DNA of 44,271 nucleotides from a virus. Below the pieces are notes generated by a model. It saw only the letters and a list, made by a program, of their open reading frames with translations, made no database searches and was not told the DNA's origin. The stretch covers positions 1 to 44,271 of the IMG/VR virus record IMGVR_UViG_3300046170_000174. One strand, 5' to 3'. Positions 7,439-38,432 of the stretch are shown here, in pieces. Numbering within the stretch: position 1 is the first letter of the stretch; every line of letters starts with the position of its first letter. Position numbers and translations under genes: made by a program.

Positions 7439-7448
7439 CGTTTAGCTC

Positions 7449-8406: not shown

Positions 8407-8408
8407 CG

Positions 8409-9092: not shown

Positions 9093-9093
9093 T

Positions 9094-10152: not shown

Positions 10153-10155
10153 ATT

Positions 10156-13100
10156 ATGGCAACAACAAAAATTACATCACCGGAATTATTTGAATTAGAA
10201 AGTTTAAACACTGCTTTAAAGTTACCGTCAGGTACTACTGCGCAGAGACCGACTAGTCCAAGTACAGGTGAGTGGAGATATAACACGACTACTAACTTAG
10301 TAGAGTTTTGGGATGGAGGACAATGGAGACAATTACAATCCGAAGATTTCCCGCCAATACCTAGCGAGCATTTTAATGTTGTTTTATATACTGGTAATGG
10401 AAGTACTCAGTCAATTACAGGAGTGGGATTTAAGCCTGACTTTGTTTGGGTAAAAGTAAGGTCAACTACAGGTTCTGGTCCAATAGCTGATTCTTCAAGA
10501 GGAACAGGGAAAGCAATGTATTCAAATTTAAGTGATGCTGATTATACATTTCCAGCTGGACAAGGAGTTACAAGTTTTGATGCTGACGGATTTTCTATAG
10601 GGGATGATTCAACGGGTAACGGAGGTTATAACGGTAATGGAAAAACTTATGTAGCTTGGTGTTGGAAAGCAAATGGAGGAACGACAACAGCAGGTTCTGG
10701 AACAAATACTACAAGTGTTACAAATCAAGCGAATACTAAAGTAGGTTTTAGTATTTCTACTTTTACTGGTTCTGCTACAGCAGCAGGTAATTTTACACAC
10801 GGATTAGGTGAAGTTCCTGAAATGTATATAGTTAAATCAGTAAGTTTTGCTGATTCATGGTTTATGTACCATAAAGATTTAGGTAGTGGTTCTAATGCTC
10901 AGGAATATGCTTTACGATTAAATACAAACGCAGCACAACAAAATAATTCAGGTTTTTGGAATAACACCGCACCTACATCAACACTGATTAGTCTTAATAG
11001 TGGAATATTAGTTAATAATGCAACTTATGTTGCTTATGCTTTTAAAAGTGTTGCAGGATTTTCATCTATTGGCTCATACATAGGTAATGCTTCACAGAAT
11101 GGCCCATTAGTAGTAACAGGATTTGAACCCGCTTTTGTACTGGTAAAAAACATTAATATACTGTCTCATTGGAGAATAGTTGATAATAAAAGAAGTCCAT
11201 TAAATCACAGACAAAGAGCATTATTTCCAGATTTAAATGTTGCAGAATCAAATGACTCTAATGATGCAGTGGATTTTTTAAGCACAGGATTTAAAATTTC
11301 TAACGATAATTCTTATTGGAATGCTAATGCAGACAAATTTATTTATATAGCATTTGCTTCTGACCCAACAGCTGCACCAACCTTAGCGGCTAGTTTTAGT
11401 AATGTAGCATATTTTGGAGATGGTCAATCAAATAGAGCAATCACCGGTTTAGGGTTTAGTCCAAGCTGGGTTTGGATAAAAAACAGAGTCGCTGCAAGAG
11501 ACCACATGGAATTTGATAATGTTAGATTGTTAGGTTCAGAGCTTGTGCCTGGAAACTACACGAACTTAGATGCAGCTGATTTTAACACAACTGCTAATGA
11601 CTTTAATAGTTTTGATACTGATGGATTTACAGTAGGTCAAGACCCATATACAAATGACGCAGGAAGTGATATGATAGCGTGGGCTTGGAAAGCAAATCCT
11701 ATTCCGGCTATAAACAATGATGGAGATATACAATCTATAGTGTCTGCAAATCAAGCAGCAGGTTTTAGTATAGTTACATATACAGGAAATTCTACAGCAG
11801 GAGCAACTGTGGGTCATGGATTGACTGTTGCGCCGGACGCTATAATTATTAAATGTATGAATACAGGCTCGACAAACTGGATAAATTATTATGAAACAAT
11901 AGGTGTTAACGATTATCTTACATTAAATTTAAATAACGCCTTAGACACGTTTTCAAATTGGTTTGCTTCCAACGCCACAACTTTTACTTTAAATAACACT
12001 TTTGGAAACGCCAACACAACTGGAAGAACTTACGTAGCTTATTGTTTTAAATCAACAGCAGGGTTTAGCAAGATGGGAAGTTATACTGGAACGGGAAGTG
12101 CGGGTAATGCTCAAAATGTAGGATTTACTCCATCTTGGGTAATGATTAAAAGAACAAACAGTATTTCAGATTGGTATATGTTTGATACAGCAAGAGGTGA
12201 TACAAGTGTATTATTGGCTAATAGTTCTGCTGCTCAATTTACTAATACTAATTTTAATTTAACATCAACAGGTTTTGATTTTGATGGAACTGACTTTAAT
12301 GAAGCTGGTTCCTCTTGGATTTACATGGCGTTTAAAGATAATTACGAATACGCATCTACAGGCACAATGGCATTTATGCTTATTGCAGGTGGTGGAGGTG
12401 GTGGAGTTAGCACTGGAACTAACACCGGTATCACCTACGTTGGTTGTGGAGGAGGAGCTGGAGGGTTCAGAGGTTCTGGTAAAGTTACTGGTGGTGGATG
12501 TTCTCCTCAGACAGATATTTCCTTAGCAGCAGGAACTTATACTGTTACCATAGGTGCAGGTGGGTCTCCCGGAGTGAGCGGTTCAACTTCTTCTATAGCT
12601 GGCCCAAGTTTAACCACTATAACAACAACAGGTGGTGGTAGAGGAGCGTCTAGTGCTTATCAACCTGAAGGAGGAGGGTCTGCAGGAGGTAGAAGCACAC
12701 ATAACAGTGCAAATCAAAGCGCAGTAGCTTGTGAAGGTTTTCCAGCTTTAGAAGGTAGTCAGGTTTCGTGGCAAGCAGGAGGGGGTGGAGCTGGTGGAGC
12801 GCAAACTACTACAGGAAGTAGTAACGCTTCAGGTATTGGGGTAGAAAGCGCAATGACTGGAACTGCAACTTATTACGCAGGTGGTGGAGCGCCAGGTGGA
12901 TTTAATACAACTTCAAGACCTCAACCTCAAGCGGGTGGTGGTGGTCAAGGGCAACTGATGGGAGAAACTGCCGTAGACACCCCATCTATAATTACTGGAA
13001 CTATAAACACTGGTGCTGGTGGGGGTGGAGGTTCTAACAACACAAACACCGGAGCTAAAGGTGGCGGAGGGTCAGGTGGTTCTGGATTTACTGTTTTAAG

Positions 13101-13212
13101 ATTAAAAACTGCAGAGTATTCTGGAACAACTACAGGTTCTCCTACAGTTACCACAGATGGAGATGAAACAATAATACAATTCACAGGGAGTGGAACATAC
13201 GTTCACTCATAA
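10156..13212 (+). CDS. long tail fibre with repeated lectin-like modules and glycine-rich tip, paralogue 3
   Basis: 1018 aa, intact. Residues 1-65 are the shared anchor (MATTKITSPELFELESLNTA; GTTAQRPTSPSTGEWRYNTT; VEFWDGGQWRQL). About residues 70-735 hold repeating beta modules with YTGNGSTQSITGVGFKPDFV, YVAWCWKANG, GSYTGTGSAGNAQNVGFTPS and TYVAY.FKS.AGFS..GSY blocks, like a phage fibre repeat family (DUF7483-like, from memory) with a concanavalin-type look. From about residue 740 it is glycine-rich and ends SGTTTGSPTVTTDGDETIIQ, FTGSGTYVHS, like paralogue 2. It is the longest fibre and probably the main adhesin. Confidence 0.85.
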   Translation: MATTKITSPELFELESLNTALKLPSGTTAQRPTSPSTGEWRYNTTTNLVEFWDGGQWRQLQSEDFPPIPSEHFNVVLYTGNGSTQSITGVGFKPDFVWVKVRSTTGSGPIADSSRGTGKAMYSNLSDADYTFPAGQGVTSFDADGFSIGDDSTGNGGYNGNGKTYVAWCWKANGGTTTAGSGTNTTSVTNQANTKVGFSISTFTGSATAAGNFTHGLGEVPEMYIVKSVSFADSWFMYHKDLGSGSNAQEYALRLNTNAAQQNNSGFWNNTAPTSTLISLNSGILVNNATYVAYAFKSVAGFSSIGSYIGNASQNGPLVVTGFEPAFVLVKNINILSHWRIVDNKRSPLNHRQRALFPDLNVAESNDSNDAVDFLSTGFKISNDNSYWNANADKFIYIAFASDPTAAPTLAASFSNVAYFGDGQSNRAITGLGFSPSWVWIKNRVAARDHMEFDNVRLLGSELVPGNYTNLDAADFNTTANDFNSFDTDGFTVGQDPYTNDAGSDMIAWAWKANPIPAINNDGDIQSIVSANQAAGFSIVTYTGNSTAGATVGHGLTVAPDAIIIKCMNTGSTNWINYYETIGVNDYLTLNLNNALDTFSNWFASNATTFTLNNTFGNANTTGRTYVAYCFKSTAGFSKMGSYTGTGSAGNAQNVGFTPSWVMIKRTNSISDWYMFDTARGDTSVLLANSSAAQFTNTNFNLTSTGFDFDGTDFNEAGSSWIYMAFKDNYEYASTGTMAFMLIAGGGGGGVSTGTNTGITYVGCGGGAGGFRGSGKVTGGGCSPQTDISLAAGTYTVTIGAGGSPGVSGSTSSIAGPSLTTITTTGGGRGASSAYQPEGGGSAGGRSTHNSANQSAVACEGFPALEGSQVSWQAGGGGAGGAQTTTGSSNASGIGVESAMTGTATYYAGGGAPGGFNTTSRPQPQAGGGGQGQLMGETAVDTPSIITGTINTGAGGGGGSNNTNTGAKGGGGSGGSGFTVLRLKTAEYSGTTTGSPTVTTDGDETIIQFTGSGTYVHS

Positions 13213-14665: not shown

Positions 14666-14890
14666 ATGGATATAAGAAAAGTATCAATAGGCGCTGATTA
14701 TAAATCAGGAGCGATGCACTATATAGTAGGGCAGGAAGTATTAGGAAAGAATTACATTATACACTTAATACAGTTCGACCAAGAATCTAAAGGTTTTAAA
14801 ATTTGGATTCAACATAAAGATGAAATACTTTTATGGAAGGAGTTCAATGTCAACATGCCTGTATCAATAGAATATAATATAAACTTTTAA
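14666..14890 (+). CDS. 74-aa conserved phage protein (MDIRKVSIGADYKS.AMHYIVGQ)
   Basis: Begins MDIRKVSIGADYKSGAMHYI, then VGQEVLGKNYIIHLIQFDQE; ends WKEFNVNMPVSIEYNINF. I recall this protein before the terminase in many Bacteroidetes phages. It is beta-rich with no enzymatic motif. The TAATG junction at 14890 couples it to the double GroES-fold gene. A packaging or head-assembly role is inferred from conserved position. Confidence 0.7.
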   Translation: MDIRKVSIGADYKSGAMHYIVGQEVLGKNYIIHLIQFDQESKGFKIWIQHKDEILLWKEFNVNMPVSIEYNINF

Positions 14891-15453
14891 TGAGGTCACC
14901 TTTTTATTTTATCGTAAAGCCAGTAGATGACAAGAGATATAACAATACTAAAAGTTTAAGTGGTATTGAGCTCATTACAAGTACATCAGAGGAGAATCAC
15001 AAAGCTTCTAACCGAGAAGGAATAGTTGAGGCTACTCCGTTAGGGTACACTGGTGATATAAGGGTAGGTGACACACTGCTAGTACATCACAACGTATTTA
15101 AGTTTTATAATGACATGAAAGGAAGAAGACAGAGTGGTAAGAGTTATTTTAAAGATAACTTGTTCTTTATAGAGAACGACCAGTTCTTTATGTATAAGCA
15201 AGATGGGCAGTGGCATTGTCATGACAGGTATTGTTTTGTTAAGCCTGCAGCAAAAGAAGATTCTGTTATAATGAAAAGAGGATTAGAAGAACCTTTGATT
15301 GGTTATATGAAATATCCAAACAAATACTTGTTATCTAAAGGTGTTAACAAAGGAGATAAGATATCTTTTAAACCAGAGAGTGAGTATGAGTTTATGGTAG
15401 ATGATGAAAAGTTATATAGAATGTATGACCACCAAATAACCATGGTATTATGA
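14890..15453 (+). CDS. protein with two GroES-like folds (co-chaperonin-like)
   Basis: 187 aa. Residues 1-104: MRSPFYFIVKPVDDKRY, a loop with SGIELITSTSEENHKASN, REGIVEATPLGYTGDIRVGD, TLLVHHNV, ending LFFIENDQFFMYK. This copies the Cpn10 order (beta strand, mobile loop with G-I-x-L, GxV, VGD, closing strands). Residues about 112-187: RYCFVKPA, LIGYMKYP, VNKGDKISFKPESEYEFMVD, MYDHQITMVL repeat the fold without an obvious mobile loop. It could assist GroEL in folding capsid proteins or be a structural relative. It sits directly upstream of terminase genes, away from groES at 3777. Confidence 0.65.
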   Translation: MRSPFYFIVKPVDDKRYNNTKSLSGIELITSTSEENHKASNREGIVEATPLGYTGDIRVGDTLLVHHNVFKFYNDMKGRRQSGKSYFKDNLFFIENDQFFMYKQDGQWHCHDRYCFVKPAAKEDSVIMKRGLEEPLIGYMKYPNKYLLSKGVNKGDKISFKPESEYEFMVDDEKLYRMYDHQITMVL

Positions 15454-15728
15454 ACTCAGATGAATTAAAAAAAGAAATTATACACGCAGGTCGTAGAGCT
15501 GTAGAGCAACTAATAAAGGTAGCGAAAGAAGATATTATAAAGCCTGACCCAGACGATGAGTTGGCGGCAGATAGATTAAAGAACGCAGCAGCAACTAAGA
15601 AGCTTGCTATATTTGATGCGTTTGAGATACTAAATAAAATAGATTCAGAGGAAGAAGTAATAAACTCTGGAGGACACGTAGATAAAACAAATACAAAACA
15701 AGGGTTTGCAGAACGAAGGTCAAAATAA
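15450..15728 (+). CDS. putative terminase small subunit / packaging accessory protein (92 aa)
   Basis: Helical, charged protein: RRAVEQLIKVAKEDIIKPDP, then DDELAADRLKNAAATKKLAI, FDAFEILNKIDSEE. This helical core with LAADRLKNAAATKKLAIFDAFEIL is conserved before TerL in Bacteroidetes phages as I remember them. The position, small size and helical make-up suggest TerS, but I see no clear HTH. It overlaps its neighbours on both sides (4 nt upstream, 23 nt with the TerL start). Confidence 0.5.
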   Translation: MNSDELKKEIIHAGRRAVEQLIKVAKEDIIKPDPDDELAADRLKNAAATKKLAIFDAFEILNKIDSEEEVINSGGHVDKTNTKQGFAERRSK

Positions 15729-17955
15729 ACTATATCATGTTATAAAGGATTATATTCCTAAGTCTGTTTTTAATAAAAAAAACAAAGCGAAGACGTGGTT
15801 ATATGGGTATAGTGAAAAATATGATTTAGTTGTTATTTCTAAAAACGGAACAATAGGAAAGATAGTAAATATAAACGGTTTAGCTATTGGGTTGCCTATA
15901 CAGCCAGAGGAGATGTTTAAACGTTCTGACAAGAAAGATGAGCAGTACTGGGAAAGACAAGAGCTTCATAAAGATTTATCTAGGATTACATCTATCTTCC
16001 AGTGGAATGATAGACCTCCTAGTTTTAAAAACAAATGGGTTGATTACATAGAGGAAGAGTTTGATAGAAGAGAGCTGGGATACTGGTTTTATAATAATGG
16101 AAAGCCTACGTATATGACAGGTTCGCATTATATGTATCTTCAGTGGACAAGTATAGATGTTGGGTATCCAGATTTTAGAGAAGCTAATAGAATCTTTTTT
16201 ATATACTGGGAAGCTTGTAAGGCAGACAAGAGGTGTTTTGGTATGGATTATTTAAAAATAAGACGTTCAGGGTTTTCTTTTATGGGTTCATCTGAGTGTG
16301 TCAATACCGGTACTCTGGTTAAAGATTCAAGAGTTGGTATATTATCAAAGACTGGTTCGGATGCTAAAAAGATGTTTACAGATAAGGTTGTGCCTATAGC
16401 AAATAGACTGCCTTTCTTTTTTAAACCTATTCAGGATGGTATGGATAAACCTAAGACAGAGTTAGCTTTTAGGATTCCAGCTTCTAAAATTACCAAGAAA
16501 AACATGCATGAGGTGATGGATGAAGAGTTAACAGGTCTTGACACTACAATTGACTGGAAGAATACAGACGACAACTCTTATGATGGTGAGAAACTTTTAC
16601 TATTAGTACACGATGAATCAGGTAAATGGCTAAAGCCAAATAATATTCAGAACAACTGGCGTGTAACAAAGACTTGTTTAAGATTGGGTAGTAAGATAAT
16701 TGGTAAGTGTATGATGGGGTCTACTTCAAATGCGCTTAGTAAAGGTGGTGAGAATTTTAAAAAATTATTCGAGGATTCAGATTTGAAGACTCGTAATGCA
16801 AATGGTCAAACTAAATCTGGACTGTATTCGCTTTTTATTCCTATGGAGTGGAACATGGAGGGATTTATAGATAGGTTTGGTATGCCAGTGTTTAGAGCTC
16901 CAGATAAAAAAATAAAAGGTGTGGATGGTGAGTGGATAACAAATGGAGCAATTGATTACTGGGAAGCAGAAGTAGATTCGTTAAGGAAAGACGCTGACGC
17001 ACTTAATGAGTTTTACAGACAGTTCCCTCGAACCGAGTCGCACGCATTTAGAGACGAGAGTAAGTCATCGCTATTTAACTTAACTAAGATATATCAGCAG
17101 ATAGATTATAATGATTCATTAATCATGGAGCATCACGTAACAAGAGGTAGGTTTTACTGGAAAGATGGAATCAAAGACTCAGAGGTTATATGGACGCCAG
17201 ATTCAAGAGGACGATTCAAGGTGTCCTGGACTCCCTAAGAAAGGTTTAAACAATGCTAAGTATTCTAAACACGGAGTGTTCTTTCCATCAAATGAACATA
17301 TAGGAGCTTTTGGTTGTGACTCGTATGATATATCAGGAACAGTTGGAGGAGGAGGTTCTAATGGAGCGCTACACGGTTTAACAAAGTATAGTATGGATGA
17401 AGCTCCAAGCAATGAGTTTTTTCTTAGAGTATGTAGCTAGACCGCAAACAGCAGAGAATATTTTTTGAAGAAGTATTGATGGCTTGTGTGTTTTATGGGA
17501 TGCCTATACTGGTGGAGAATAACAAGCCTAGGCTACTCTATCACTTTAAAAACAGAGGGTATAGAGGGTTTAGCATGAACAGGCCGGACAAACATTACAC
17601 TAAACTGTCTAAGACAGAAAAAGAACTTGGAGGTATACCGAATACTTCTGAGGATATTAAGCAGTCACATGCTGCAGCTATAGAGTCGTATATAGAAAAA
17701 TACGTAGGTTTAGATTTAGACGGTGGTTATAGAGCTGGGGATGAAATGGGTGGTATGTATTTTACTAGGACTTTAGAAGATTGGGCTAGGTTTGATATAA
17801 GTGCTAGAACTAAGTTTGATGCTAGTATTAGTTCAGGGTTAGCCATTATGGCAAATCAAAAACATGTATATCTACCGCAGAAAAAAGAGTCAAAAATAAG
17901 TCTTAACTTTGCAACATATAATAACAAAGGAACATTAAGTGAATTAATTAGATGA
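15706..17955 (+). CDS. terL: large terminase subunit (about 748 aa, three frameshifts)
   Basis: ATPase/nuclease motor that packages DNA into the procapsid. An atypical Walker A lies in DYLKIRRSGFSFMGSSE and a Walker B in EKLLLLVHDESGKW. The nuclease half has GAFGCDSYDISGTVGGGGSN (first catalytic Asp) and EEVLMACVFYGMPILVEN. One-base shifts at about 17230-17240, 17420-17426 and 17450-17465 break the gene after SWTP; frames run 1, 2, 3, 1, each as if one base were inserted. The start is TTG at 15706, overlapping the putative TerS gene; no closer in-frame ATG exists before 15913. It ends 4 nt inside the portal gene. Confidence 0.9.
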
Positions 17956-26052: not shown

Positions 26053-29000
26053 ATGGCAAACATTCAAAGAAATTTTATAGCTGGCCGAATGAATAAAAGC
26101 CTAGATGAAAGGCTTATACCTAATGGTGAATACATAAATGCTGTAAATGTTAGATTGGGTTCTACAGAAGACTCTGAGATTGGGGCTGTTGAAAACTCTA
26201 AAGGAAATATACCTTTAACAACCCTACAATATGTTGATGGAACACCATTAAGTTCTCAGGCTAGATGTATAGGAGCTTTTGAAGATGGAGCTAATTTAGT
26301 TATATATTGGTTTGTTCACGACCCTGCGTTTACGCAAGGAGCAACTGGTAAATTAGATTTAATTGTTTCTTTTGATGTAGAAACAGGCGAACTTATTTAT
26401 CATGTTATTAGTATAGATAATGGAAATGGTGTAGATACAACTTTAAATTTTAATCCAAATTTTCTTATTACAGGTGTTAATAAAATAGATAATTTATTAT
26501 TTTTTACAGACAACACAAACCCTCCTCGAGTAATTAACATTAATAAAAATTATGGAGACCCCAGACCAGCAGTATTAACTGATGATTTTAATCAGGTAGA
26601 TATAATGGTTATAAAAAAACCACCAACCAGCGCACCTACAATTACTGTTTTTAATGTAGCTAGTATTACAGATGCGTATTTAGAAGATAAGTTTATTTGT
26701 TTTGCGTATAGATATAAGTATGATAACAACGAGTACTCTGCAATATCTCAATTTACCGAACCTGCTTTTAGTCCTCAATCTTTTAATTTTAGTTCCAATA
26801 GTTACTTAAATGAAGGAATGATTAATAGGTTTAATGCTGTAACTATAAATTTTAATACAGGAGATGAACGTGTAATTGCTGTGCAGGTTGTTTTCAAGGA
26901 GTCAAATTCTTCAACTATAAAAGTTGTAGAGACTTATAATGTAAGTAACAGAGTTCGATATCCCGTAAACACAATCGTGAACGAAACTTTTACAAATCGA
27001 AAAATATACACTGTATTGCCTAGTTCAGAAATTTTAAGATTATATGACAATGTTCCACAGCTTGCTAAAGCTCAAACATTAATGGGGAATAGATTGGTAT
27101 ATGGAAATTATTATGAAGGGTACGATTTAAAAAGTTCTAATGGTACATCTGTAGATTTTAGTTTTGAATCAATTTTAAAAAGTGAAGATATAAATTTAAC
27201 ATCTATAAAAGCTAATGAAGCAAGGGGAGCTGCATATACTATAAACCCACCAGGATTTACAGCACCGGCAGTTGAAATTGATGATAGTGTTTTTTATGTA
27301 GATTTACTTCCAGCAGTTCCTTTGCCTAACAATCCAAAAGGGTTTTTAACTGCAGGAGCTACATTGACATTTACGTTTGGAATAGCTTATGCTAGTAATT
27401 ATGCTACTTCAACCCCAACTCCTGTTCCTTTTGAAGATGTTGTATTTGTGACTTGGAGTTATACTTTAATTAAAGATTACATTTCTGTAAATGCCTTAGC
27501 AACTGATGCAGATTTTGTAGATAAAATAGGTACTCTTTCTACTATAAAACCTATAACAACAGCTTCAACTGGTTTAACTTTAACTGATGTTTTTAATGCA
27601 GCCTTACCTTTAACGTTTGATTCAACTTATACTAATCTAGTTCAAACTGGAAGAACTTCATCTACACCTACAGCTCCTGCTGGCCAGCCTTTAGAAATTA
27701 TAACGAGTGCTACAAGTTATAAAATAGGTATACAAGCTAATGCAGCTGTTTATGATAAAGGGTCAGCGCCTTTAAATCCAATAATTGCTTATTTAAGATT
27801 TACCAATGTATCTGCTGAAATAAGAACTGCACCATCAATAGCAAGTTTACACAGTAATAGAGGCTACGAAATAGGAATGGTCTATATGGATGACTTTAAT
27901 AGAGCATCAACCGCTCAAGTAAGTGAGTTTAATTCTGTTAATTTACCATGTAATCTTTCAAATCAAAAAAATTATATTCAAGTACAAATTCCAGAGTCTC
28001 AACAAGCGCCTTTATGGGCTACTAAATATAAGTTTGTTATAAAGCCTACAAAAAGCAACTATGAAACAATATATAGTAATATAGCTTATAGTGAGTCAGG
28101 AACAAACTCTTCATATTTTTTATTAGAAGGAGAAAATGCACAAAAAGTAGAAGCTGGAGATAGGTTGATTGTAAAAGCAGATTCAACTGGCGCAATAAAT
28201 AATTGTACATACGCAACAGTTTTAGAAAAAGAAGCACAGGCTGCAGGTTTTATTAAAATTTATGATGATGCTGGAGATGAACTAGAAGTATTCGGAGGAA
28301 CATATATGAAAATTAATGCTTCTAATTTTGTAATCAATACAACTGAAGATGCAATTATTAATAGTCAAGTATTGCCAAGCACTGCTAAAGGTGCACAAAA
28401 TTCATACCCAGTTGTAGCATATCCAATGTTTACAGCAACTCAAGCGTCAGGTGTGGTTGCCACTACATTAGTTTATGATGTTCCTGTAGGCACAAGAATA
28501 AAAATGGAGTTTGAGTTTAGAAGAGATGGAGTTCCTGCGGATAAAAACAATGCTTGTTTAGAAAAAAGTTATACGTTAGTAAAAACTTTTACTGCATCTA
28601 GGGATTATGGAAATATGCAAGAATGGTTTGAGGGTGACAATATAGCTTTAACTTTAAACGAAGGAATAGAAACGGTAGCTGAAGATGAGTCTATAGTCAA
28701 TAGTTATATACCTACACCTAACACATCTCAAAATTTTCCACCGTTTCCGGTTACAGGAGCAAAAAGTGTAACTCAATACAATGCAGTATTAACAGCAGAT
28801 GAAATTAAATCAGCAACATATTTTGGTTCTACAGCAACTTCGCCTAACACCGATTTTTATTATAGGTTTTATGTAGACCAAGTTTCAAACAACATATATT
28901 TATTAGTATCAGGTTCTAGCTCTTGTACTACAGGTGCTGACCAACCACATAGAGAATCATCAGTAAAAGTTAATTTTACAATATCAAGAGCTAATTCAAC

Positions 29001-31020
29001 TTATGTATTTGAAACAGAACCAGAAGAAGCGTTAGCTGATGTATGGTACGAGAACAGTGAGTCATTTGATATAAATGGAGATTTTCATTTAGGGAATGTG
29101 CAAAATCAAACATTAAATCAGCCAGGGATTGTTAATACTGGATTTTTTAATTGTTATGCTTTTGGAAACGGAGTGGAAAGTAATAAAATACGAGATTCAA
29201 TTAAAGGTGAACAAGTTACTCTAGGTAACAGAACTTTTACCACTTCTAATGAAGAATACAAAGCTGCGCATAGATTTGCTGATTTAACGTACAGTGGCGT
29301 ATTTAATGATGAATCAAATGTAAACAGACTTAATGAGTTTAATCTAGGGCTTCTTAACTTTAAGCCTTTAGAAGAAACTTATGGAGATGTAGAAATATTG
29401 TTTGCAAGAGAAACTGATATACTAGTTTTACAAGAAGATAAAATTTCTTATGTACTTGCAGGTAAAAATTTATTATCTGACGCTGTAGGAGGTGGAGCGG
29501 TAACTTCTGTTCCTGAAGTATTAGGAACACAAATAGCTCGTATTGAAGACTATGGTATAAGTAATCATCCAGAAAGCTTTGCAGAATTTGGTGCGAACAA
29601 ATTTTTTACAGACGCAAAAAGAAATGTTGTAATAAAACTTACAGGTAGTTCAGCTCAGAATGAACAACTTACAGTTATTTCTAATGAAGGTATGCGAAGC
29701 TGGTTTAGAGATTTATTTGCTGAAGCATCTGCAACCCAAAAATTAGGAGGGTATGACCCTTATATGCAAGAATATGTTTTTACAACAAACACAATTGTAA
29801 AGCCAGAGACAGAGTTATGTACAGCTTGTGGAGTTACAAAAAACATTACAATTGTTGCTGGTCAAGAATTTGTCTATTGTGTCGATATAGGAGAAGATTC
29901 TGGGCCTCCGTCTAACCAGTACTATGTAGAAATAGATTATGTTATACCTTTTGAAAATACAGACTTAATAGTTACTGAGGGAACAGAGCAGCAAGTAGTT
30001 ACGGAAGCAGGAGTAGATATTGAAACTGAAGGACAAGTTACGGGAACAGGTTATACCATTCAAGCTATATATGATGGAGTAACTTACACTACTGGGATTG
30101 TTTACCAAAGCGGAACTTTAGTATTTCCAAAACCTAATCCAACGCCTACTGAAGTTGTCATGATTGTTTCGTCAGATGCAATAGTAAACGACACAATTCA
30201 GGTAACGGTAAAATGTCCAGAAGAAGAATTGTTTAGTGTTTATAGTATTACTTTATCTACTAATGCAAATGCTAATCAATTTATTCACACTGAATATTCT
30301 TGGAAAGATTCTACTGTCACATCTCCAATTCAGAGTGATTTAGTTACATTTATATCAAGTCCTAACGACCCAGTTGTTTCTCAGTATAGAGAATTAGAAG
30401 GGCCTCAAGGTTCAAATATTATACCTCCAGATGGAGCAACAATTACAGTAAGGTCTAACAAAATTAATTTTGATAATTTTCAATTTGACCCTACTGAAAA
30501 TGAATTTAGATATTTAAGAACCGATGCTCTGTATGAAAACAACTCAACTGACATGAGTATTTTATTAGCTGCTTCAGTTCAAGCAACTCCAATTAACACA
30601 AGCGATGCCCCCAATTTATATAGTGCGCAATTTGGGCTTCCTTCACTGGGTAATAAATTATATTTAATATATGATTTAAGAAATTCAATTGGGCAAGAAT
30701 TATGTTATTCATCAACAAGTTTATTTGATGCTTGTTGTAACTGTACGTTTACCCCAACACCAACACCTACGCCTACACCAGTCCCTTCACCTGTAATACC
30801 AACTTATGATTATTTTGTAGGTATTAATTGTGTAAGTTTAGAGGCAGTATATTTAAAGTCCAACACTACTCTTGGAGTGGTGGTTGGAGATGAAGTTCAA
30901 TATTCTTTTGGAGGTGCTGTAGTGGGATGTGCTTCTTTATACGCAACTGATGGAACAGGAAGTAGTGGTGAAGTAACATTTAAAGTAGCAGGATGTGGAG
31001 ATTCAAGATGTTCAGTATAA
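26053..31020 (+). CDS. large stabilisation/tail-hub-like virion protein with C-terminal Pro/Thr linker (1655 aa)
   Basis: Intact, 1655 aa. N terminus MANIQRNFIAGRMNKSLDER, LIPNGEYINAVNVRLGSTED recalls a conserved tail-stabilisation protein family of Bacteroidetes phages. Most of it is beta-rich, including FADLTYSGVFNDESNVNRLN and ILFARETDILVLQEDKISYV (propeller-like). Near the end [20 protein letters not shown] is a Pro/Thr stalk leading to one Cys module (YDYFVGINCVSLEAVYLKSN ... CGDSRC), the same design as the next protein. It is probably attached near the tail or capsid vertex, with the Cys module exposed. Translation is coupled to 25131 by a one-base gap. Confidence 0.75.
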   Translation: MANIQRNFIAGRMNKSLDERLIPNGEYINAVNVRLGSTEDSEIGAVENSKGNIPLTTLQYVDGTPLSSQARCIGAFEDGANLVIYWFVHDPAFTQGATGKLDLIVSFDVETGELIYHVISIDNGNGVDTTLNFNPNFLITGVNKIDNLLFFTDNTNPPRVININKNYGDPRPAVLTDDFNQVDIMVIKKPPTSAPTITVFNVASITDAYLEDKFICFAYRYKYDNNEYSAISQFTEPAFSPQSFNFSSNSYLNEGMINRFNAVTINFNTGDERVIAVQVVFKESNSSTIKVVETYNVSNRVRYPVNTIVNETFTNRKIYTVLPSSEILRLYDNVPQLAKAQTLMGNRLVYGNYYEGYDLKSSNGTSVDFSFESILKSEDINLTSIKANEARGAAYTINPPGFTAPAVEIDDSVFYVDLLPAVPLPNNPKGFLTAGATLTFTFGIAYASNYATSTPTPVPFEDVVFVTWSYTLIKDYISVNALATDADFVDKIGTLSTIKPITTASTGLTLTDVFNAALPLTFDSTYTNLVQTGRTSSTPTAPAGQPLEIITSATSYKIGIQANAAVYDKGSAPLNPIIAYLRFTNVSAEIRTAPSIASLHSNRGYEIGMVYMDDFNRASTAQVSEFNSVNLPCNLSNQKNYIQVQIPESQQAPLWATKYKFVIKPTKSNYETIYSNIAYSESGTNSSYFLLEGENAQKVEAGDRLIVKADSTGAINNCTYATVLEKEAQAAGFIKIYDDAGDELEVFGGTYMKINASNFVINTTEDAIINSQVLPSTAKGAQNSYPVVAYPMFTATQASGVVATTLVYDVPVGTRIKMEFEFRRDGVPADKNNACLEKSYTLVKTFTASRDYGNMQEWFEGDNIALTLNEGIETVAEDESIVNSYIPTPNTSQNFPPFPVTGAKSVTQYNAVLTADEIKSATYFGSTATSPNTDFYYRFYVDQVSNNIYLLVSGSSSCTTGADQPHRESSVKVNFTISRANSTYVFETEPEEALADVWYENSESFDINGDFHLGNVQNQTLNQPGIVNTGFFNCYAFGNGVESNKIRDSIKGEQVTLGNRTFTTSNEEYKAAHRFADLTYSGVFNDESNVNRLNEFNLGLLNFKPLEETYGDVEILFARETDILVLQEDKISYVLAGKNLLSDAVGGGAVTSVPEVLGTQIARIEDYGISNHPESFAEFGANKFFTDAKRNVVIKLTGSSAQNEQLTVISNEGMRSWFRDLFAEASATQKLGGYDPYMQEYVFTTNTIVKPETELCTACGVTKNITIVAGQEFVYCVDIGEDSGPPSNQYYVEIDYVIPFENTDLIVTEGTEQQVVTEAGVDIETEGQVTGTGYTIQAIYDGVTYTTGIVYQSGTLVFPKPNPTPTEVVMIVSSDAIVNDTIQVTVKCPEEELFSVYSITLSTNANANQFIHTEYSWKDSTVTSPIQSDLVTFISSPNDPVVSQYRELEGPQGSNIIPPDGATITVRSNKINFDNFQFDPTENEFRYLRTDALYENNSTDMSILLAASVQATPINTSDAPNLYSAQFGLPSLGNKLYLIYDLRNSIGQELCYSSTSLFDACCNCTFTPTPTPTPTPVPSPVIPTYDYFVGINCVSLEAVYLKSNTTLGVVVGDEVQYSFGGAVVGCASLYATDGTGSSGEVTFKVAGCGDSRCSV

Positions 31021-31025
31021 ATAGT

Positions 31026-31033
31026 TAACTTTG
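31026..31033 (+). promoter_or_regulatory. -7 box (TAACTTTG)
   Basis: TAACTTTG is 12 nt before ATG 31045, the shortest spacing among the boxes here, giving a leader of only a few nucleotides. Confidence 0.6.
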
Positions 31034-31044
31034 TAAAATTGTAA

Positions 31045-33720
31045 ATGGCAACAACAGGAACATATTATTATAGCTCATCTAGCTTTTCAACAGCTACAGC
31101 ATTATTTTTAGATGCAGCTTTAACTAGTTTTGCGCCTGATGGATGGTATTCAGACCAATCAATATATAGGCAACAAGCATCAGGAGTTTTATTTGCAGAA
31201 ACATCATGCCCTAACTGTGGTACACCAGTCCCTGTTCCAACTCCAGTAGTTTACGATTACAAAATATACACTGAATGTGTTGGAACTGGAACACAAGTTT
31301 TTAGAATAGTTCAAGGAGGAACTTTTCCACCTACTGTTGAGTATAGTGGTATTTGTTATTATAACCCACAACCGACTGGGTTAACATCTATTATAAATGT
31401 AAATGGTTTAGTAAGTTATGCTGACTGTGCCGCTTGTGGTACAACGCCTACTCCAGGACCAACGCCTACTCCAGGACCAACGCCTACACCAACGCCAGTA
31501 CCCACAGTTTCTTATGATTACAAAGAATATAATGCGTGTGGCGGAACTGCAACACAAATATTTAGATTGATTTCACCAGGCACATTTGAACCAGTTTACT
31601 TATATAATGGAACATGTTATGAAAATCCTTCTCCAACGGGGTCTACTTCATCAGTAGATGCAGCAGGGCTTTCATTTTATGCTAATTGCGGAGCGTGTAC
31701 ACCAACACCAACACCTACGCCTACACCAACACCTACACCTACGCCTACAGCATCCGGGACTGAAATTTTCTCGACTAACACAGTTGGAAATGGACAAAGT
31801 GCTTCCAGTATTGCTTGTCCACTTCAAGCTACCAATAGCATGTATACAACAAGAGCAAATGTAGCTTCGATACAAGTAAATGATATAATATATACAAACT
31901 CTGGACTGACTAATATTTGGAACGGTGGTCTTAAATGGTATGGTGTAACAAATGTAAATAGTCATTATCCAAACTTAGATAGTGGATATGCTTTATTAAT
32001 TAGTGCACTTGGAGTTGTTGATTCAATTGTAGATTGTACAGCGCCACCTAGTCCAACGCCAGTTCCAGCAGCTGCTACATTCCAAGATGTTGAAATAAGA
32101 CAATGTTTTACAACAACACCGACTTACAAAGTAAGAGTTACAGGTTTAACAGCCCCAACCTTAGCTAATGGTATTGTAATACAAATAACGGGCGCAGCTA
32201 GCGCACCAAACCCAGAGTTTACTGGCTCTACTTGTTGGGAAATTATTGACAACGCTGCAACATCTTTTGATTCTTCAGCCGCTCTTAATTCTACATTTAG
32301 TAGCTGTTCAGCTTGTGGAGCAACACCACAATATAATTACGCTATATATACGGAATGTCAAACTTCTGCAACTATAGTACTAAGAAAACTTACTACAACT
32401 GCTAGTTTCCCTAATTTTGTAGAGTATAATAATATTTGTTACTCAAGCCCAGTTCCAACTACAGCTACATCACTTATTAGTGTTGAGTCTTTAACAAGCT
32501 TCAACAATTGTTATGATTGTGAAAACCCATCAATGTTTATTAATGGTCTACCTCAAGGGGGATATACATTAGCTGATGGATGTGTTGCGAGAACAGATTA
32601 TTTTGTGTTCTCTAATAGAGCAACAGTTGCACAAATTGTGGTGGGAGATATATTATATGCTAACTCTTCTAAAACAACTGTGTTTGATGGAGGTTTAGAA
32701 TATTTTAGTATATCAAATACATTAGGACATTTGCCACAATCTACTGATAGTAAATATTTAATTAATTCTTTAGGAGAAGTTTTAACTATATTAAGTTGTT
32801 CATCTACGCCTACGCCTCCTACGCCTACGCCCGTGCCATCACCAACTACTAACATTCAAGTTAGAGATTGTGCTGATGCTAGCAGAACGGCTTACATAAC
32901 AGTAGCTGGAACTTATTTATCAAATGCAATTGGAGTTTCTCTTAAAATTAGTGGTGGTGCTGGTGGTTCATGTCAATCAGGATTTAATGGAACTAAATGT
33001 TGGGAAATTATAGCAGTAAATACGGTTTCAGATTGTAGCGTAACGACAGTTTCAGTACAAGGAAGTTGTGGTGGATGTACACCAAGTCCTACTCCAACGC
33101 CAGTTCCAGCTCCAACGCCAGCTCCAGTTCCAGTTGCACCAGTGCCAACACCTACCCCAGTCCCTACTCAGTCTGTTTATTATTTTAATATTGATAGATG
33201 TGATGGAAGCGTAGGAACATTTAGTAATGTAGCTACAACTTCTATATTATCAGAAGGACAATCAGTAAAAATGGCTGATGGCCATTGTTATGAGTATGGT
33301 GGAAGTGTTGGTATAATTAATTCTAATTCTCCCGTAGCTATATATAATAATTGTACTATTTGTTTAGCATCAATTCCGACTCCGACTCCGACTCCGACTC
33401 CGACTCCGACTCCGACTCCAGCTCCGACTCCGACTCCGACTCCGACTCCAGCTCCGACTCCTACTCCAACGCCTAGTAACCCGTCTATTAGTTTAGAGTA
33501 TATAGTCCAGAGTGGTCCTTCGCCTGTTCCAAGTTTTACTTGTAGTGGATACACTACTTTTTACATGAACACATCCGATTTCTGTACAGCTACAAACTTA
33601 TACAGGGATAGCGCAGGAACAAGAGGAGCTTTTGCAGGATACTATAACACAGGTTCTTTCTATAGATTTTGGAATGGTAGTTCATTTACACTTTCATGTA
33701 CATCTACAAGTTGTCCATAG
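31045..33720 (+). CDS. Cys-module / Pro-Thr-stalk virion protein (891 aa)
   Basis: Intact. About nine small modules (60-90 aa) joined by stalks such as [20 protein letters not shown] and [19 protein letters not shown]. Module type [21 protein letters not shown] ... [11 protein letters not shown] ... YADCAAC (copies at about residues 68, 155 and 430). Type [10 protein letters not shown] ... CWEII ... SCSAC (twice, plus a variant DGHCYEYGG). Type C: residues about 240-330 and 515-600, both with GG(L)(K/E)(W/Y)(Y/F). First and last modules ([40 protein letters not shown]) are alike. Paired cysteines suggest disulfides or metal. No signal peptide. Likely a displayed, extensible adhesin; the family is not named to my knowledge. 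Confidence 0.7.
33376..33473 (+). repeat. hexanucleotide tandem repeat encoding Pro-Thr/Pro-Ala stalk
   Basis: CCGACT repeats almost without change, with CCAGCT units encoding Pro-Ala in between. The stalk lies just before the last module of the 891-aa protein. Such identical hexamers can gain or lose units in frame, changing stalk length. Confidence 0.85.
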
Positions 33721-33773: not shown

Positions 33774-35073
33774 ATGGAGGAAATACACAATTATATTACG
33801 CCACAGGAGTGTCAAGAACTTATTAAAATGATTGACGCAAACCATTCACGCTCTTCAGTAGTAGTAGGAGGCACAGACCGAACTGATGTTACTAATCATA
33901 GAACATCAAGCACATCTAATTTAGACATGAATACCCCTGTAATGTCTAAAATAAAAAAACAAATATCTGAAACATTGGGATTGGAACTTGTTAAAGGTGA
34001 AGCACTTCAAGGACAACTATACGAACCTGGTCAATACTTTAAACCACATAATGATTTTTTTAGTGGACCAGCTTATGATATGCACTGTAAGGCATCTGGC
34101 AATAGAACACATACTTTAATGATATATCTTAATGAAGATTATAAAGGGGGTGGTACATATTTTCCAACACTACAAAAAACAATAAAACCCGAAACAGGCA
34201 AAGCTTTGTGGTGGCATAATTTAAAAGACGGAAAAGTTCAAGAACAATATTTACATGAAGGTGTAACGGTAGATGAGGGTAAAAAATATGTTGTTACTTC
34301 TTGGTGGAGAGAAAAAAGTTGGGATGGAGCTGGAGATGAAAAAATGTATTACGATTCTAAAAAAGAAAATACAGTACAAAAAATAGAGGATAGTTCAATT
34401 GTAGAAGGTATGCAAAATAAATCTTATATAGTTAAAGCATCCGAGACTGAAAACTTAAAAAAAATAGTAGAAAAAAAAGAATTTACTAACGTAGATAATT
34501 TTCCTCGATTTACAGATAATGGTTTTACTTTAATTAAATGTCCTGACAGAAACCTGGAATTTAATTAATGAATCTTACGAGTTACTTAAAGATAAAAAAG
34601 AAACAGAAGATTTTGAGGTAAAGAACAGATTTATTGTTGGAGGAGATTCTGACATAATGTCGTTTGACCATTTGCCACCGTAAGAACAATGATACACGAC
34701 CAGTTCTTAAATCTCATCAAGACTGGGTTAAAAGAATTTTAAACCATCTTTTATTTATGGTATACGGTCATACACAAAAGGAGCTACACTAACTCCACAT
34801 GTTGATAGGATAGCTACACACCACATATGCTCTATAATTATAGTAGATAAAGATTTAGCTTGTGGTTGTTCAAATAAACCATGAGTCTGATGATTGGCCT
34901 CTTGATATTCAAGGTCACGATGGAGAATGGTATAAAGTATATGCTCAACCAGGAGATATGATACTTTATGAATCAGCTGTGTGTGAGCACGGTAGAAAAG
35001 AAGCTTTGGGGGGACACATTTTAGAAATTTTTACGTACACTATAAACTAAAAGACTGGGTATATAAGCCATGA
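33774..35073 (+). CDS. tandem 2OG-Fe(II) oxygenase, prolyl 4-hydroxylase-like (about 430 aa, several frameshifts)
   Basis: Oxygenase that uses O2, Fe(II) and 2-oxoglutarate. Domain 1 (residues 1-180): FKPHNDFF gives iron ligands H92 and D94, GGGTYFPTL, then LHEGVTVDEGKKYVVTSWWR with distal H161 and 2OG-binding K171 at H+10, as in prolyl 4-hydroxylases. Domain 2, rebuilt across shifts near 34550, 34677, 34740, 34881 and 35022: FIYGIRSYTKGATLTPHVDR (HxD), PLDIQGHDGEWYKVYAQPGD, MILYESAVCEHGR, FRNFYVHYK (distal His), ending VYKP at TGA 35071. It sits between Pro/Thr-rich virion genes. Substrate is inferred, not shown. Confidence 0.8.
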
Positions 35074-35720
35074 GCAAATCAATAATAAATGATTATACTG
35101 TTGTTACTTGTGTAACCGGAAATTTTAATAAAGTACATAAAACAAATATTAAAAACGCTATAGTATACACTACATTAAGAGATGTTGAGTTTACTGAGCA
35201 TGCTACACAAAACGGATGGCAGGTTCGCATTTTACCATTTACACACTCATACGATTTAAGAGAAGGAACAAGACAATCCAAGTATGTTAAATTTTTAAAG
35301 TATCATATTCCTGAAACAAAGTATGTAATTTATATAGACCATAAATATAAAATACAAAACATTCATGCAATAAAATTAATAGAATTAATTGGAAACAATT
35401 CTTTTTTATCTTTTATAAATACTTCAAGTATATATCATGAATTTTTTAAATCTTTAAGTTTTCCTAGATATAAAAATGATATAGATGAAATGATAAAAAC
35501 AATTACAGAAAATGAAAATAAAGGTTATGATGATTTAAAATTATTTTATGGAGGCATGATGGTTTACAACACAACCCATCAAAGATTTAAAATTATAAAA
35601 CAAAAAATGGAAGAGTATACTGAAAAATACTATCATGTTCAAGACCAGTTATTATTTCCTATAGCAATAAAAGATGAAACAAAGGTTTTGATTCATAATA
35701 CTATTGATTTAAAAACATGA
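35070..35720 (+). CDS. glycosyltransferase-like protein (DUF616/TOD1-MUCI70-like)
   Basis: 216 aa. DYTVVTCVTGNFNKVHKTNI, then WQVRILPFTHSYDLREGTRQ, SKYVKFLKYHIPETKYVIYI, DHKYKI: the K.LKYH..PETKY.IYID..Y.I layout is that of a glycosyltransferase-like family known in plants and bacteria (PF04765-type), with D-x near the DxD position. The end has DLKLFYGGMMVYNTTHQRF. The start overlaps the oxygenase stop (ATGA), so the two are coupled. A shift at about 35715 might extend it by about 12 residues (EHIQEPIPNKTY) to TAA 35755-35757. Confidence 0.6.
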   Translation: MSKSIINDYTVVTCVTGNFNKVHKTNIKNAIVYTTLRDVEFTEHATQNGWQVRILPFTHSYDLREGTRQSKYVKFLKYHIPETKYVIYIDHKYKIQNIHAIKLIELIGNNSFLSFINTSSIYHEFFKSLSFPRYKNDIDEMIKTITENENKGYDDLKLFYGGMMVYNTTHQRFKIIKQKMEEYTEKYYHVQDQLLFPIAIKDETKVLIHNTIDLKT

Positions 35721-35760: not shown

Positions 35761-36588
35761 ATGATAAGATTTTTACCTAGCGCAATAGTTGACCCTCGAT
35801 ATAAATGGATGGCAAACTTTTGGGCATACTGCCAAAAAAAAGTATACGGTAAGGATGCTTTATATAATAGTCTAGTCACTATTGTTAATCAAAATACATA
35901 TAATAGTAACGTATATAATTCAGTCGATTGGGATTTACTTGGATTCCTCATTACATAAGTCCTCCGATTTGGAATTACGTTAATAGTAAAAATGATTTAT
36001 GTATAGTTATTAATGTCGTTTCTTCTTTAAAACCCTTGCTTAAAGATTTTGATGACAACGATACTTTAGTTTTGTGTGATATGGATATGGTTTTATTAAA
36101 ACCGTATGATGGTATTTTACCTGACGATAACACTATTATTTGTTATGATGGTTACGAAGATTGGCACATGTTTATAGCTAATAAAGAAAAACAAAACTAT
36201 AATAAAATAGTACCTTATTTAAAACATCAAGAACAGGGGTATATGAATGGTGGCTTTGTTCCTATTTTTATAAAAGCAAAACTTTTAAAAAAAATTATAG
36301 ATGAATTAATATCAACTGCTGAAGAAATTGTGGAGTCTAAAGAAGAGTCCAACATGGAAATGGTGGAGCTGTATGACTGCTTTATCAATAGTTTGTCATA
36401 ACAATAAAATTAAAATGGTTGGTCAAGACAATACTTATATTCCTAATTTTAATCACTTTAACCAAGACAAACATTACTTCGCACATTATAGCGTAGACCC
36501 TATATTTAATAAAAGAACTTTTCCTAATCATAAAATAACAAATACCCAAAAAACGATTTTTACAACCTTATTAAGGAATGGATGGTAA
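35761..36588 (+). CDS. glycosyltransferase with DxD motif (about 275 aa, two frameshifts)
   Basis: MIRFLPSAIVDPRYKWMANF, then NSVDW, shift near 35935, GFTWIPHYISPPIWNYVNSK, LVLCDMDMVLLKPYDGILPD (DxD-type DMDM), then QGYMNGGFVPIFIKAKLLKK. A second shift at about 36350 leads from ESN to WKWWSCMTALSIVCHNNKIK and HYSVDPIFNKRTFP. The DMD..L.KP core, the GG.VPI..K...LK.I stretch and the late W...CM.AL.I helix recall hydroxyproline O-arabinosyltransferases of plants; this match is loose and from memory. A nucleotide-sugar transferase is the safer call. It is last in the modification cassette. Confidence 0.6.
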
Positions 36589-36610
36589 AATAAAAGAATT
36601 ATTAAATTCG

Positions 36611-36618
36611 TAAATTTG
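36611..36618 (+). promoter_or_regulatory. -7 box (TAAATTTG)
   Basis: TAAATTTG is 16 nt before ATG 36634. Confidence 0.55.
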
Positions 36619-36633
36619 TAACAAATATACCGA

Positions 36634-38432
36634 ATGGCTTGTAAGTCATATTTGTCGTGTCCTATAGAAGCAGTAGGAAGCTCCACAGCTATATGTTCAT
36701 GGATAGTTACTTGTTGTGAAGGCAAAGAAATACAAATTGATGTTCCAGTAAACACATTTGCTGTTTATTGTTTGGATAATCCTTCCCGTAATAATATAAT
36801 ACCTAATTCAAACGGTGGGGGAGTGGACTACTAAATACCTAGAATGTGAAACCAAATGTGGGGATGCTAACCCGACCCAATAGAAGGGTATATATATTAT
36901 GAATATGAAAATTGTAATGCGGCAAGTCAGAAACAAATATTTAGAGCTCCAGCCGGTTTTACTGCGTGGCCTGACACTATTGGCTTATCAATCGATTTGT
37001 TGGAGCAAATGGTGTTAGCGTAACTAATATATCTTATTTAGATGTTGCTAATATACCTACGTATGCAGATTGTGCTACTTGTGCAACAGCAATAGCTCCA
37101 ACACCGACGCCACCGACGCCACCGACGCCACCGGGTACTCCTGAATATTGTTTAAGTTTTACTAATACACTAACAGTTTCTTCAAATGCAGTAGAATTTC
37201 CTGATATTTTAAATTTACCTGACACTTCAGTAAGTTTTTATGTGATTAATGGAGCTTGGGGTATTTATCAAGTAAGCACTGGTGTTTATCAAATAACAGG
37301 TGTGTCTGCAGAATGGCCAATAGCATTTTTAAACAATGGAAAAGAAAATTTAATTTCATACACAGGGACAAAACTAGAAAAAGATGCAGTTGCTTTAGAT
37401 GGAAATACATACTCATTTTATTCAGGTACAATAACATTAAATGTAAACGAAGATTTTGGAACTATTAGTTATCAAACATTATATCCTGAGTCTACAAATG
37501 GACAATACTTTTTAGGTGAAAATAATTTAAGATTTAGCACGGATTGTAATCCTTCAAACCCTCCAACCCCAACACCGCCTAGTCCAAGTCCGACACCACC
37601 AAGTGTTGTTCCTCCTATACCTTCACCAGTTGATACTGAATGGACAGTAAGTTATAGTGAAAACTCAAAAGGTTGGCCTTCATTTTATTCTTATATCCCA
37701 GAGTATATGATAGGGATGAATAATTTCTTTTACACATTTAAAGGAGGTAATTTATACCAGCACAATGTAAATGAAAAAAGAAACAATTATTATGGTGAAC
37801 AATATAACTCACAAATAACAAGTGTATTTAATCAAAACCCACTGGAAAATAAAGTATTTAAAACACTAAACTTGGAATCTAATGATGCTTGGGAATCTTA
37901 TTTAGAAACTGATATACAGATAAATGGTTTTATGGAAGATGGTTGGTTTGAAAAGAAAGAAGGAGCTTGGTTTGCATATCTTAGACAAAGAGGCGAAGTG
38001 CCAGCACTTGAAGGGCAATACGCTATGAGGTCAGCTAATGGTATTGGTAAAACAAACAATGTAGCGATTACACAAGGTACAACAACTTTAAGTTTTTCAA
38101 CTGACCCACTTGTATCTATAGGAAACTTTATTAGTGTAGGTGATTATGTATACCACTCACTACCACAATACACTGAAATTTCTTACGGTGGTATTGTGAC
38201 ACAGATAAATGTAGATTTACAGAACAATATAAATGAATTAATTGTAAGTACTACTTCAGCTGACACAGTTACTTTTCCGCTAAATGACCCATACATTATG
38301 TTTATAAAAAGTTCTGAGGCTGAATCTCATGGTTTACTAGGACATTATTGTATATTTACTATAACTAACTTTAATACTCAAGCTACGGAACTATTTGCAG
38401 TAGAGAGCGATGTAATGAAAAGCTATCCGTAA
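36634..38432 (+). CDS. virion protein with Cys modules, Pro/Thr linkers and a conserved C-terminal domain (about 600 aa, three or more frameshifts)
   Basis: MACKSYLSCPIEAVGSSTAI opens a Cys-rich module. Shifts at about 36835, 36880 and 36995 give LECETKCGDANPTP, YYEYENCNAASQKQIFRAPA and ISYLDVANIPTYADCATC, a type-A module as in the 891-aa protein. Linkers APTPTPPTPPTPPG and NPPTPTPPSPSPTPPSVVPP follow. The C-terminal 280 residues have SENSKGWPSFYSYIPEYMIG, MNNFFYTFKGGNLYQHNVNE, NNYYGEQYNSQITSVFNQNP and LENKVFKTLNLESN, a conserved block of Bacteroidetes-phage structural proteins (similar sequences occur in crAss-like phages). Probably anchored to the virion by this part. Confidence 0.7.

Follow-up and report, generated by a model that had tools for sequence, protein, structure and literature searches.

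A muzzle-linked array of cysteine modules on Pro-X stalks in a crAss-like phage contig: a putative tail-tip adhesin with candidate stalk-modifying enzymes

Receptor-binding proteins of phages usually consist of a conserved dock and a hypervariable distal part, and folded modules carried on Pro/Thr linkers of variable length are familiar from cellulase-type PT-box linkers and mucin-type stalks. The muzzle gp44 of phicrAss001 is a ~1-MDa hexameric tail-tip gatekeeper, and in the same phage disulfides stabilise the tail barrel and fibre hubs (PMC10172136). In crAss-like phages, a protein associated with the tail contains BACON repeats, for which host-surface binding has been proposed (PMC6949934). 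The adhesins of gut phages contain Ig, BACON or PKD domains and were shown to bind mucus and epithelium; the accessible part of that publication reports neither Pro-X (PX) stalks nor a hydroxylase operon (PMC13370021). Proline-rich repeats are modified in plants, where prolyl 4-hydroxylases (P4Hs) hydroxylate extensin- and AGP-type repeats (PMC4132260) and noncontiguous hydroxyprolines can be O-arabinosylated (PMC8012813). In the case of Skp1, prolyl hydroxylation enables glycosylation of the protein (PMC7864055).

The DNA analysed here is a stretch of 44,271 nucleotides of the IMG/VR record IMGVR_UViG_3300046170_000174 (hereafter, the window), a crAss-like phage contig. By eye, a GroEL-like chaperonin ORF (1096-2508) and a GroES-like ORF (14890-15453) can be noted in it, as well as glycine-rich proteins upstream of the terminase (6774-13212), which seem to be additional tail-fibre or decoration proteins. 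The gene considered below encodes an array of Cys-containing modules with PX linkers. It resembles the BACON repeats of gut crAss-like phages in its variable tandem beta domains, their duplication and horizontal transfer (PMC6949934), and the Ig-like adhesins of Bacteroidota phages in the modular combination of domains, which mediate adhesion there (PMC13370021). Unlike the BACON repeats, the modules are Cys-rich, lack a Pfam match (A and B), are carried on (PX)n stalks, are linked to the muzzle and are followed by genes of candidate modifying enzymes; unlike those of cellulases, they match no catalytic or known carbohydrate-binding family. Both genes flanking the array gene are homologous to parts of gp44 (PMC10172136); however, the muzzle of the window is split over two genes, both with PX stalks, and the array gene lies between them. 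The noncontiguous [T/S/V/A]-P repeats and the homologous enzymes are similar to those of plant extensins and AGPs with P4H and hydroxyproline O-arabinosyltransferase, HPAT (PMC4132260 and PMC8012813), and the P4H and PF11397 glycosyltransferase homologues to those of the Dictyostelium and Toxoplasma Skp1 system with PhyA and glycosyltransferases (PMC7864055). In contrast to the plant and Skp1 systems, the enzymes are phage-encoded and distant (HPAT, E 5.6e-8), would act in the bacterial cytoplasm, and have a chemistry that can only be deduced from their families.

Modules and linkers of the array protein

Iterated profile HMMs made from the window's own modules delimit ten modules in the array protein, each with E <= 1e-14: two C modules, one at each end, four A modules, two A' modules (a longer variant of A) and two B modules (Table 1). 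The initial annotation had described about nine modules of three types alternating with PT linkers. The three types stand, the number has to be raised to ten, and the alternation is not strict, as the junctions within A'-A-B consist of 5 and 1 residues and have no PT linker. Profile comparison relates A' to A (hhalign E 5e-5, prob 67); it indicated no relationship of B with A or with C. Paralogous modules inside the protein share 13-55% identity, and dN/dS values of 0.15-0.28 over the module codons indicate purifying selection. Few positions are invariant, and these include cysteines. Those of the A module are C9, C36, C60 and C63, with a CxxC at the end, and those of the B module are C20 and C92; of the cysteines of A' that correspond to those of A, two are fully invariant and one is nearly so. 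The conservation of cysteines in each module, claimed earlier, is borne out by the module alignments for A and B, and partly for A'.

Table 1. Array gene, flanking muzzle genes and downstream genes of the window
Feature	Position	Strand	Evidence or remark
Muzzle, N-terminal part	26053..31020	+	phrog_14478 "virion structural protein"
Muzzle C-terminal extension	30742..31017	+	Pro-X linker and A-like Cys module
Array protein, 891 aa	31045..33720	+	C-A-A-B-A'-A-B-A'-A-C modules and Pro-X linkers
Module C1, N-terminal, 58 aa	31045..31218	+	Proposed muzzle dock; in 64 distinct proteins
Module A1	31252..31437	+	Profile HMM, E 8e-23
Pro-X linker A1-A2	31438..31512	+	
Module A2	31513..31698	+	Profile HMM, E 6e-20
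Pro-X linker A2-B1	31699..31755	+	
Module B1	31756..32037	+	Profile HMM, E 2e-41
Pro-X linker B1-A'1	32038..32076	+	
Module A'1	32077..32316	+	Profile HMM, E 1e-35; AlphaFold2 A'-A-B model, pLDDT 95.3
Module A3	32332..32520	+	Profile HMM; within the A'-A-B model
Module B2	32524..32799	+	Profile HMM; within the A'-A-B model
Pro-X linker B2-A'2	32800..32841	+	
Module A'2	32842..33078	+	Profile HMM, E 4e-29
Pro-X linker A'2-A4	33079..33177	+	33-114 aa in relatives
Module A4	33178..33363	+	Profile HMM, E 1e-14
Pro-X linker A4-C2	33364..33528	+	Longest of the array
Module C2, C-terminal	33529..33714	+	Profile HMM, E 4e-27
2OG-Fe(II) oxygenase, prolyl-4-hydroxylase type, N-terminal domain	33774..34568	+	PF13640, E 2e-12
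ORF; L052 and L055 have homologues in the same position	35070..35720	+	No Pfam or NCBIfam match
HPAT-like glycosyltransferase fragments	35919..36585	+	BLAST cluster shared with L024:13044-13877 (PF23452, E 5.6e-8)
Third gene, A module	36889..37082	+	Over two frames in the contig; E 8e-8 and 2e-4
Third gene, region with two Pro-X linkers	37092..37601	+	Linkers at 37092-37145 and 37551-37601
Muzzle C-terminal domain (K), separate gene here	37605..38432	+	

The linkers are of the (PX)n type and hold 67 prolines in 171 residues, compared with 27 in the 720 other residues of the protein. The residue after the linker proline is T in 40 cases, V in 12, S in 6, A in 5, and G and P in 2 each. The longest Pro-X run of the array is 34 residues, whereas the maximum among 2000 shuffles of the protein was 8. 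Linker lengths were compared in nine distinct relatives of the same architecture, window included, as the initial annotation had suggested. They vary widely (17-51, 33-114 and 46-62 aa for three linker slots) while module lengths are nearly constant, and some relatives have PS or PV where others have PT. The linkers, taken earlier for near-identical, are alike in composition but differ between relatives.

AlphaFold2 models were built from an alignment of orthologues and paralogues, fold prediction being another check proposed at the outset. The A'-A-B model (241 aa) is confident, with a mean pLDDT of 95.3 and a pTM of 0.75; for the C1-A1 model, these values are 84.7 and 0.60. Both are mostly beta, and both pTM values are compatible with modules that fold independently. 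As in the initial annotation, which recognised no module family, the searches returned no assignment: there was no convincing Pfam match for A and B, no match to PDB sequences for A, B and C, and no Foldseek match of the A'-A-B model to the PDB with E below 0.6. The BACON family (PF13004) was matched neither by the A1 and A2 alignments (E up to 0.1) nor by the whole protein (E up to 1). Among PHROGs, the modules match only families of unknown function (B weakly phrog_21885). No match to the whole array was found by tblastn in 50,697 phage records, and of 503 pattern matches to the B module in bacterial genomes, none was confirmed. A likeness to RbpA (VIA-align best Z 3.8 for A'-A-B and 4.3 for C-A, 40 residues) was taken for a common small beta arrangement and rejected; matches to RSV matrix, Cas9 and antibody structures were taken as chance. 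Whole-ORF matches to phrog_38031 and phrog_15511 were also discarded: they covered one linker and its neighbourhood, although the third gene does belong to phrog_38031. In the BFVD, the A'-A-B model matched uncharacterised proteins of uncultured phages, Virus NIOZ-UU157 and Cellulophaga phage phi17:1, whose gp62 also gives a weak match to the B profile (iE 9.5e-4). Since these BFVD and phi17:1 matches exist, a new fold is not claimed. The gp62 protein (L152, 36770-37207) is a small protein with a B-like module in an unrelated flavobacterial phage, and its gene adjoins tail and lysis genes.

Array gene and split muzzle

The ORF upstream of the array gene is related to structural proteins of Cellulophaga phages, Flavobacterium phages (Elemovirus) and other flavophages. 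Comparison of its N-terminus with gp44 of phicrAss001 and the cr118_1 counterpart gave an hhalign match of E 4e-6, prob 87 (columns 4-236), which is a moderate match to the N-terminal ring-joining/propeller region of gp44; gp44 was not listed by hmmsearch against the PDB. The K domain encoded downstream, in a profile of the window and its relatives, matches residues 1199-1285 of gp44 (PDB 7QOK) with E 2.5e-12, and in Elemovirus and the gut crAss phage cr118_1 it is joined to the muzzle in a gene fusion. Given that both flanking genes match parts of gp44, the muzzle is encoded in two pieces with the array gene between them: it is a single polypeptide in Elemovirus and cr118_1, whereas in the window it is divided between 26053-31020 and ~36.9-38.4 kb.

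Past a conserved CCxC motif, the C-terminus of the muzzle N-terminal part carries a variable extension of 0-156 aa, often Cys-rich. The module found there in the window has an A-like layout; however, its comparison with the A profile (E 0.006, prob 6) does not establish homology. In the third gene, the A module is genuine; it is frameshift-split in the window contig and intact in relatives (E 1e-20 or better). Consequently, the recurrence of modules and linkers in three virion genes, proposed earlier, holds for the PX linkers in all three genes and for the A module of the third one, but is not established for the muzzle module as an A homologue. The muzzle extensions of L107-L112 contain, by eye, A-like Cys modules with no PX linkers between them.

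The loci were gathered by matches to the array and to B or C modules, not by the muzzle. In 14 distinct relatives, the muzzle and the array form one ORF (e.g., L024, 2305 aa); the fusions inspected (L024, L045 and L050) lack the N-terminal C module and keep only the C-terminal one. Each of the 64 distinct proteins that start with a C module has a muzzle gene directly upstream, and 69 of the 70 spacings between muzzle and array measure 1-28 nt. Every protein pair is related in the N-terminal 58 aa (2016/2016, 100%), compared with 541 of 1830 pairs (30%) for the remainder. On sequence grounds, such a pattern is that of a tail-tip adhesin whose dock is conserved. Owing to the fusions, the synteny of the C module and the muzzle, the contrast between the conserved 58 aa and the variable remainder, and the variable muzzle C-terminus, we consider that the array belongs with the muzzle, and the fusions and synteny suggest its membership in the virion. 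The comparison with extensible adhesins of the cellulase or mucin type, drawn in the initial annotation, fits the architecture, the confident prediction of independent folding, the linker-length variation and the tail-tip linkage; for the location in the virion, it is the fusions and synteny that speak. The spacer from the muzzle stop to the array start (31024-31047) is nearly invariant DNA in relatives, keeps the frame and is unique in the window; it is perhaps a translational coupling signal. Programmed readthrough from muzzle to array, raised by their shared frame and the conserved spacer between them, was set aside.

Lineages differ by gain, loss and exchange of modules. The DNA of L007 and L008 is identical over C1-A1-A2-B1 (95% at the muzzle 3' end), whereas the later modules share 71-88%. 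The window shares 98% with L007 in B2 and 95% in A'2, but 53% in A2; with L008 it shares 95% in A'1 and in C2, but 66% in A3. The second A' of L013 is only 20% identical to that of the window, L021-L023 have no counterpart of one A module, and L028 and L029 carry at least one more.

Oxygenase and glycosyltransferase genes downstream

The second domain of the oxygenase is broken by a frameshift in the contig, with a piece at 34862-35050. Intact homologues of ~390-450 aa are present in PX-bearing phages and match solved P4Hs: a bacterial one at 1e-24, human P4HA2 at 2e-16, a chlorella-virus P4H (5c5t) at 2.5e-12, and that of Chlamydomonas (2jig) at ~8e-12. The H-x-D...H...K(+10) set (H102, D104, H171, K181) is invariant in 34 homologues, window included. 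The HPAT-like fragments of the window alone match no family, and the HPAT family (PF23452) is found above the Pfam cut-off in four relatives and below it (E ~3e-6) in three. Relatives carry intact copies of the oxygenase and HPAT-like genes, both of which are interrupted by frameshifts in the window. The oxygenase, the HPAT-like gene (35919-36585), the third gene (36600-37100) and the terminase (15706-17955) all look split over frames, which can be explained either by contig indel errors or by decay.

Between the array and the gene of the muzzle C-terminal domain, PX-bearing phages, and only these, carry an insert in which the oxygenase comes first and glycosyl- or sugar-related genes follow. 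Other insert genes encode O-FucT-like proteins, dehydratases/epimerases, a carbamoyltransferase and a radical SAM/SPASM protein. The latter lies between the oxygenase and the glycosyltransferase in L016 (11881-12792) and L026, and might perform a further peptide modification of the array. The carbamoyltransferase (PF16861/PF02543) is encoded in the insert of L045 (8359-9795).

A P4H-family oxygenase is the next gene in all 34 PX loci with visible downstream sequence, and it occurs in 15 of 15 whole records with a PX array, compared with 0 of 17 others. A glycosyltransferase of the HPAT type or of the PF11397 type, to which the GlcNAc-transferase that modifies hydroxylated Skp1 belongs, usually follows the oxygenase and is found in none of the 16 PX-free records; PF11397 itself is present in eight PX-array records and in L143. 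In L143 and L144, the array has no PX, the gene that precedes the muzzle C domain has a short PX tail, a PF11397 glycosyltransferase adjoins and there is no P4H. When the search was started from the oxygenase or the HPAT-like protein, 87 of 89 loci belonged to the muzzle/module family, and long PX runs were present in 77. Among 50,697 named phage records, a P4H homologue (E 1e-8) was found in eight and the HPAT-like protein in none. On the muzzle tree, there are only two changes of PX and two of P4H, and these coincide, so that one or two evolutionary events are represented. These are not statistically independent observations, and for this reason no p-value is given for the link between PX and P4H. 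Given so few events and a chemistry deduced from enzyme families, the modification of the stalks is put forward as a strong, testable hypothesis.

Proposed role of the array

We propose, with a probability of about 0.68, that the array is a muzzle-docked tail-tip adhesin of a crAss-like phage and that its PX stalks are hydroxylated and glycosylated by the downstream enzymes. With its N-terminal C module the protein would dock on the muzzle hexamer of the tail tip, and the small Cys-containing beta modules, spaced by polyproline-II-like (PX)n stalks, would form a flexible string reaching toward the cell surface, where they may bind receptors, probably glycans. The muzzle itself also bears PX stalks, on its N-terminal half and on the C-terminal domain encoded separately. 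The observed gain, loss and swapping of modules would serve to tune recognition, and the observed variation of linker length to tune reach. The linkage and the enzyme families make it likely that the P4H homologue hydroxylates PX prolines in the infected cell before assembly, and that the glycosyltransferases put sugars on the stalks; these modifications may stiffen, protect (protease resistance) or mask the stalks. The host is probably a marine representative of the Bacteroidota, as judged from related isolates only.

We lean slightly towards a dedicated phage pathway, in which a P4H and an HPAT- or Gnt1-type glycosyltransferase, in some phages with NDP-sugar enzymes, would yield extensin/AGP-like rods at the tail tip. 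By analogy, the linker sequence is a plausible type of substrate for both steps, because plant P4Hs act on proline repeats and noncontiguous hydroxyprolines can be O-arabinosylated. PF13640 oxygenases and HPAT or PF11397 glycosyltransferases could have other substrates. In a reading that we regard as rather unlikely, the array would again be a tail-tip adhesin, with the PX linkers as unmodified spacers, and the enzymes would be cargo at a permissive site, acting on other virion proteins, host surface glycans or nucleotides. The variable gene set of the insert (radical SAM/SPASM, carbamoyltransferase, dehydratase, O-FucT) does resemble a cargo hot spot, and no PX runs lie near the P4H-like genes of Erwinia, Salmonella and Microcystis phages (four inspected). 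Against cargo, however, the oxygenase is always the first gene after the PX array, and records without PX do not contain it anywhere. Two glycosyltransferase families with known hydroxyproline-acting members substitute for each other at this site, and only 2 of the 89 loci retrieved by the oxygenase or the HPAT-like protein have no muzzle or module match, which also argues against it.

It is very improbable that the infected cell exposes the array on its surface or secretes it (e.g., for superinfection exclusion or aggregation) rather than being a virion adhesin. PX-linked Cys modules are indeed typical of extracellular proteins, and the assignment to the virion is an indirect one; however, the array is fused in frame to the muzzle in the relatives described above, it sits between the two muzzle halves, and its N-terminus, by eye, opens with a C module and not with a hydrophobic signal-like segment.

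Modular tail-associated beta-domain arrays are already known in crAss-like phages. Searches of the open-access literature for virion proteins with prolyl hydroxylation or hydroxyproline glycosylation by phages gave no report, and stalk modification would be new if confirmed. The array adds a probable tail-tip adhesin, unrecognised and rapidly reshuffled, to the crAss-like phages of environmental (probably marine) samples, and it shows that their muzzle gene can be split around the gene of this adhesin. If the linkage to the enzymes has the proposed meaning, phages hydroxylate proline and glycosylate hydroxyproline on their own virion proteins, a plant-cell-wall-like modification on a bacterial virus. 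This would be a new route to stiff, protease-resistant or masked appendages, and such phages would provide a compact, testable source of hydroxyproline-glycosylating enzymes independent of the eukaryotic secretory pathway.
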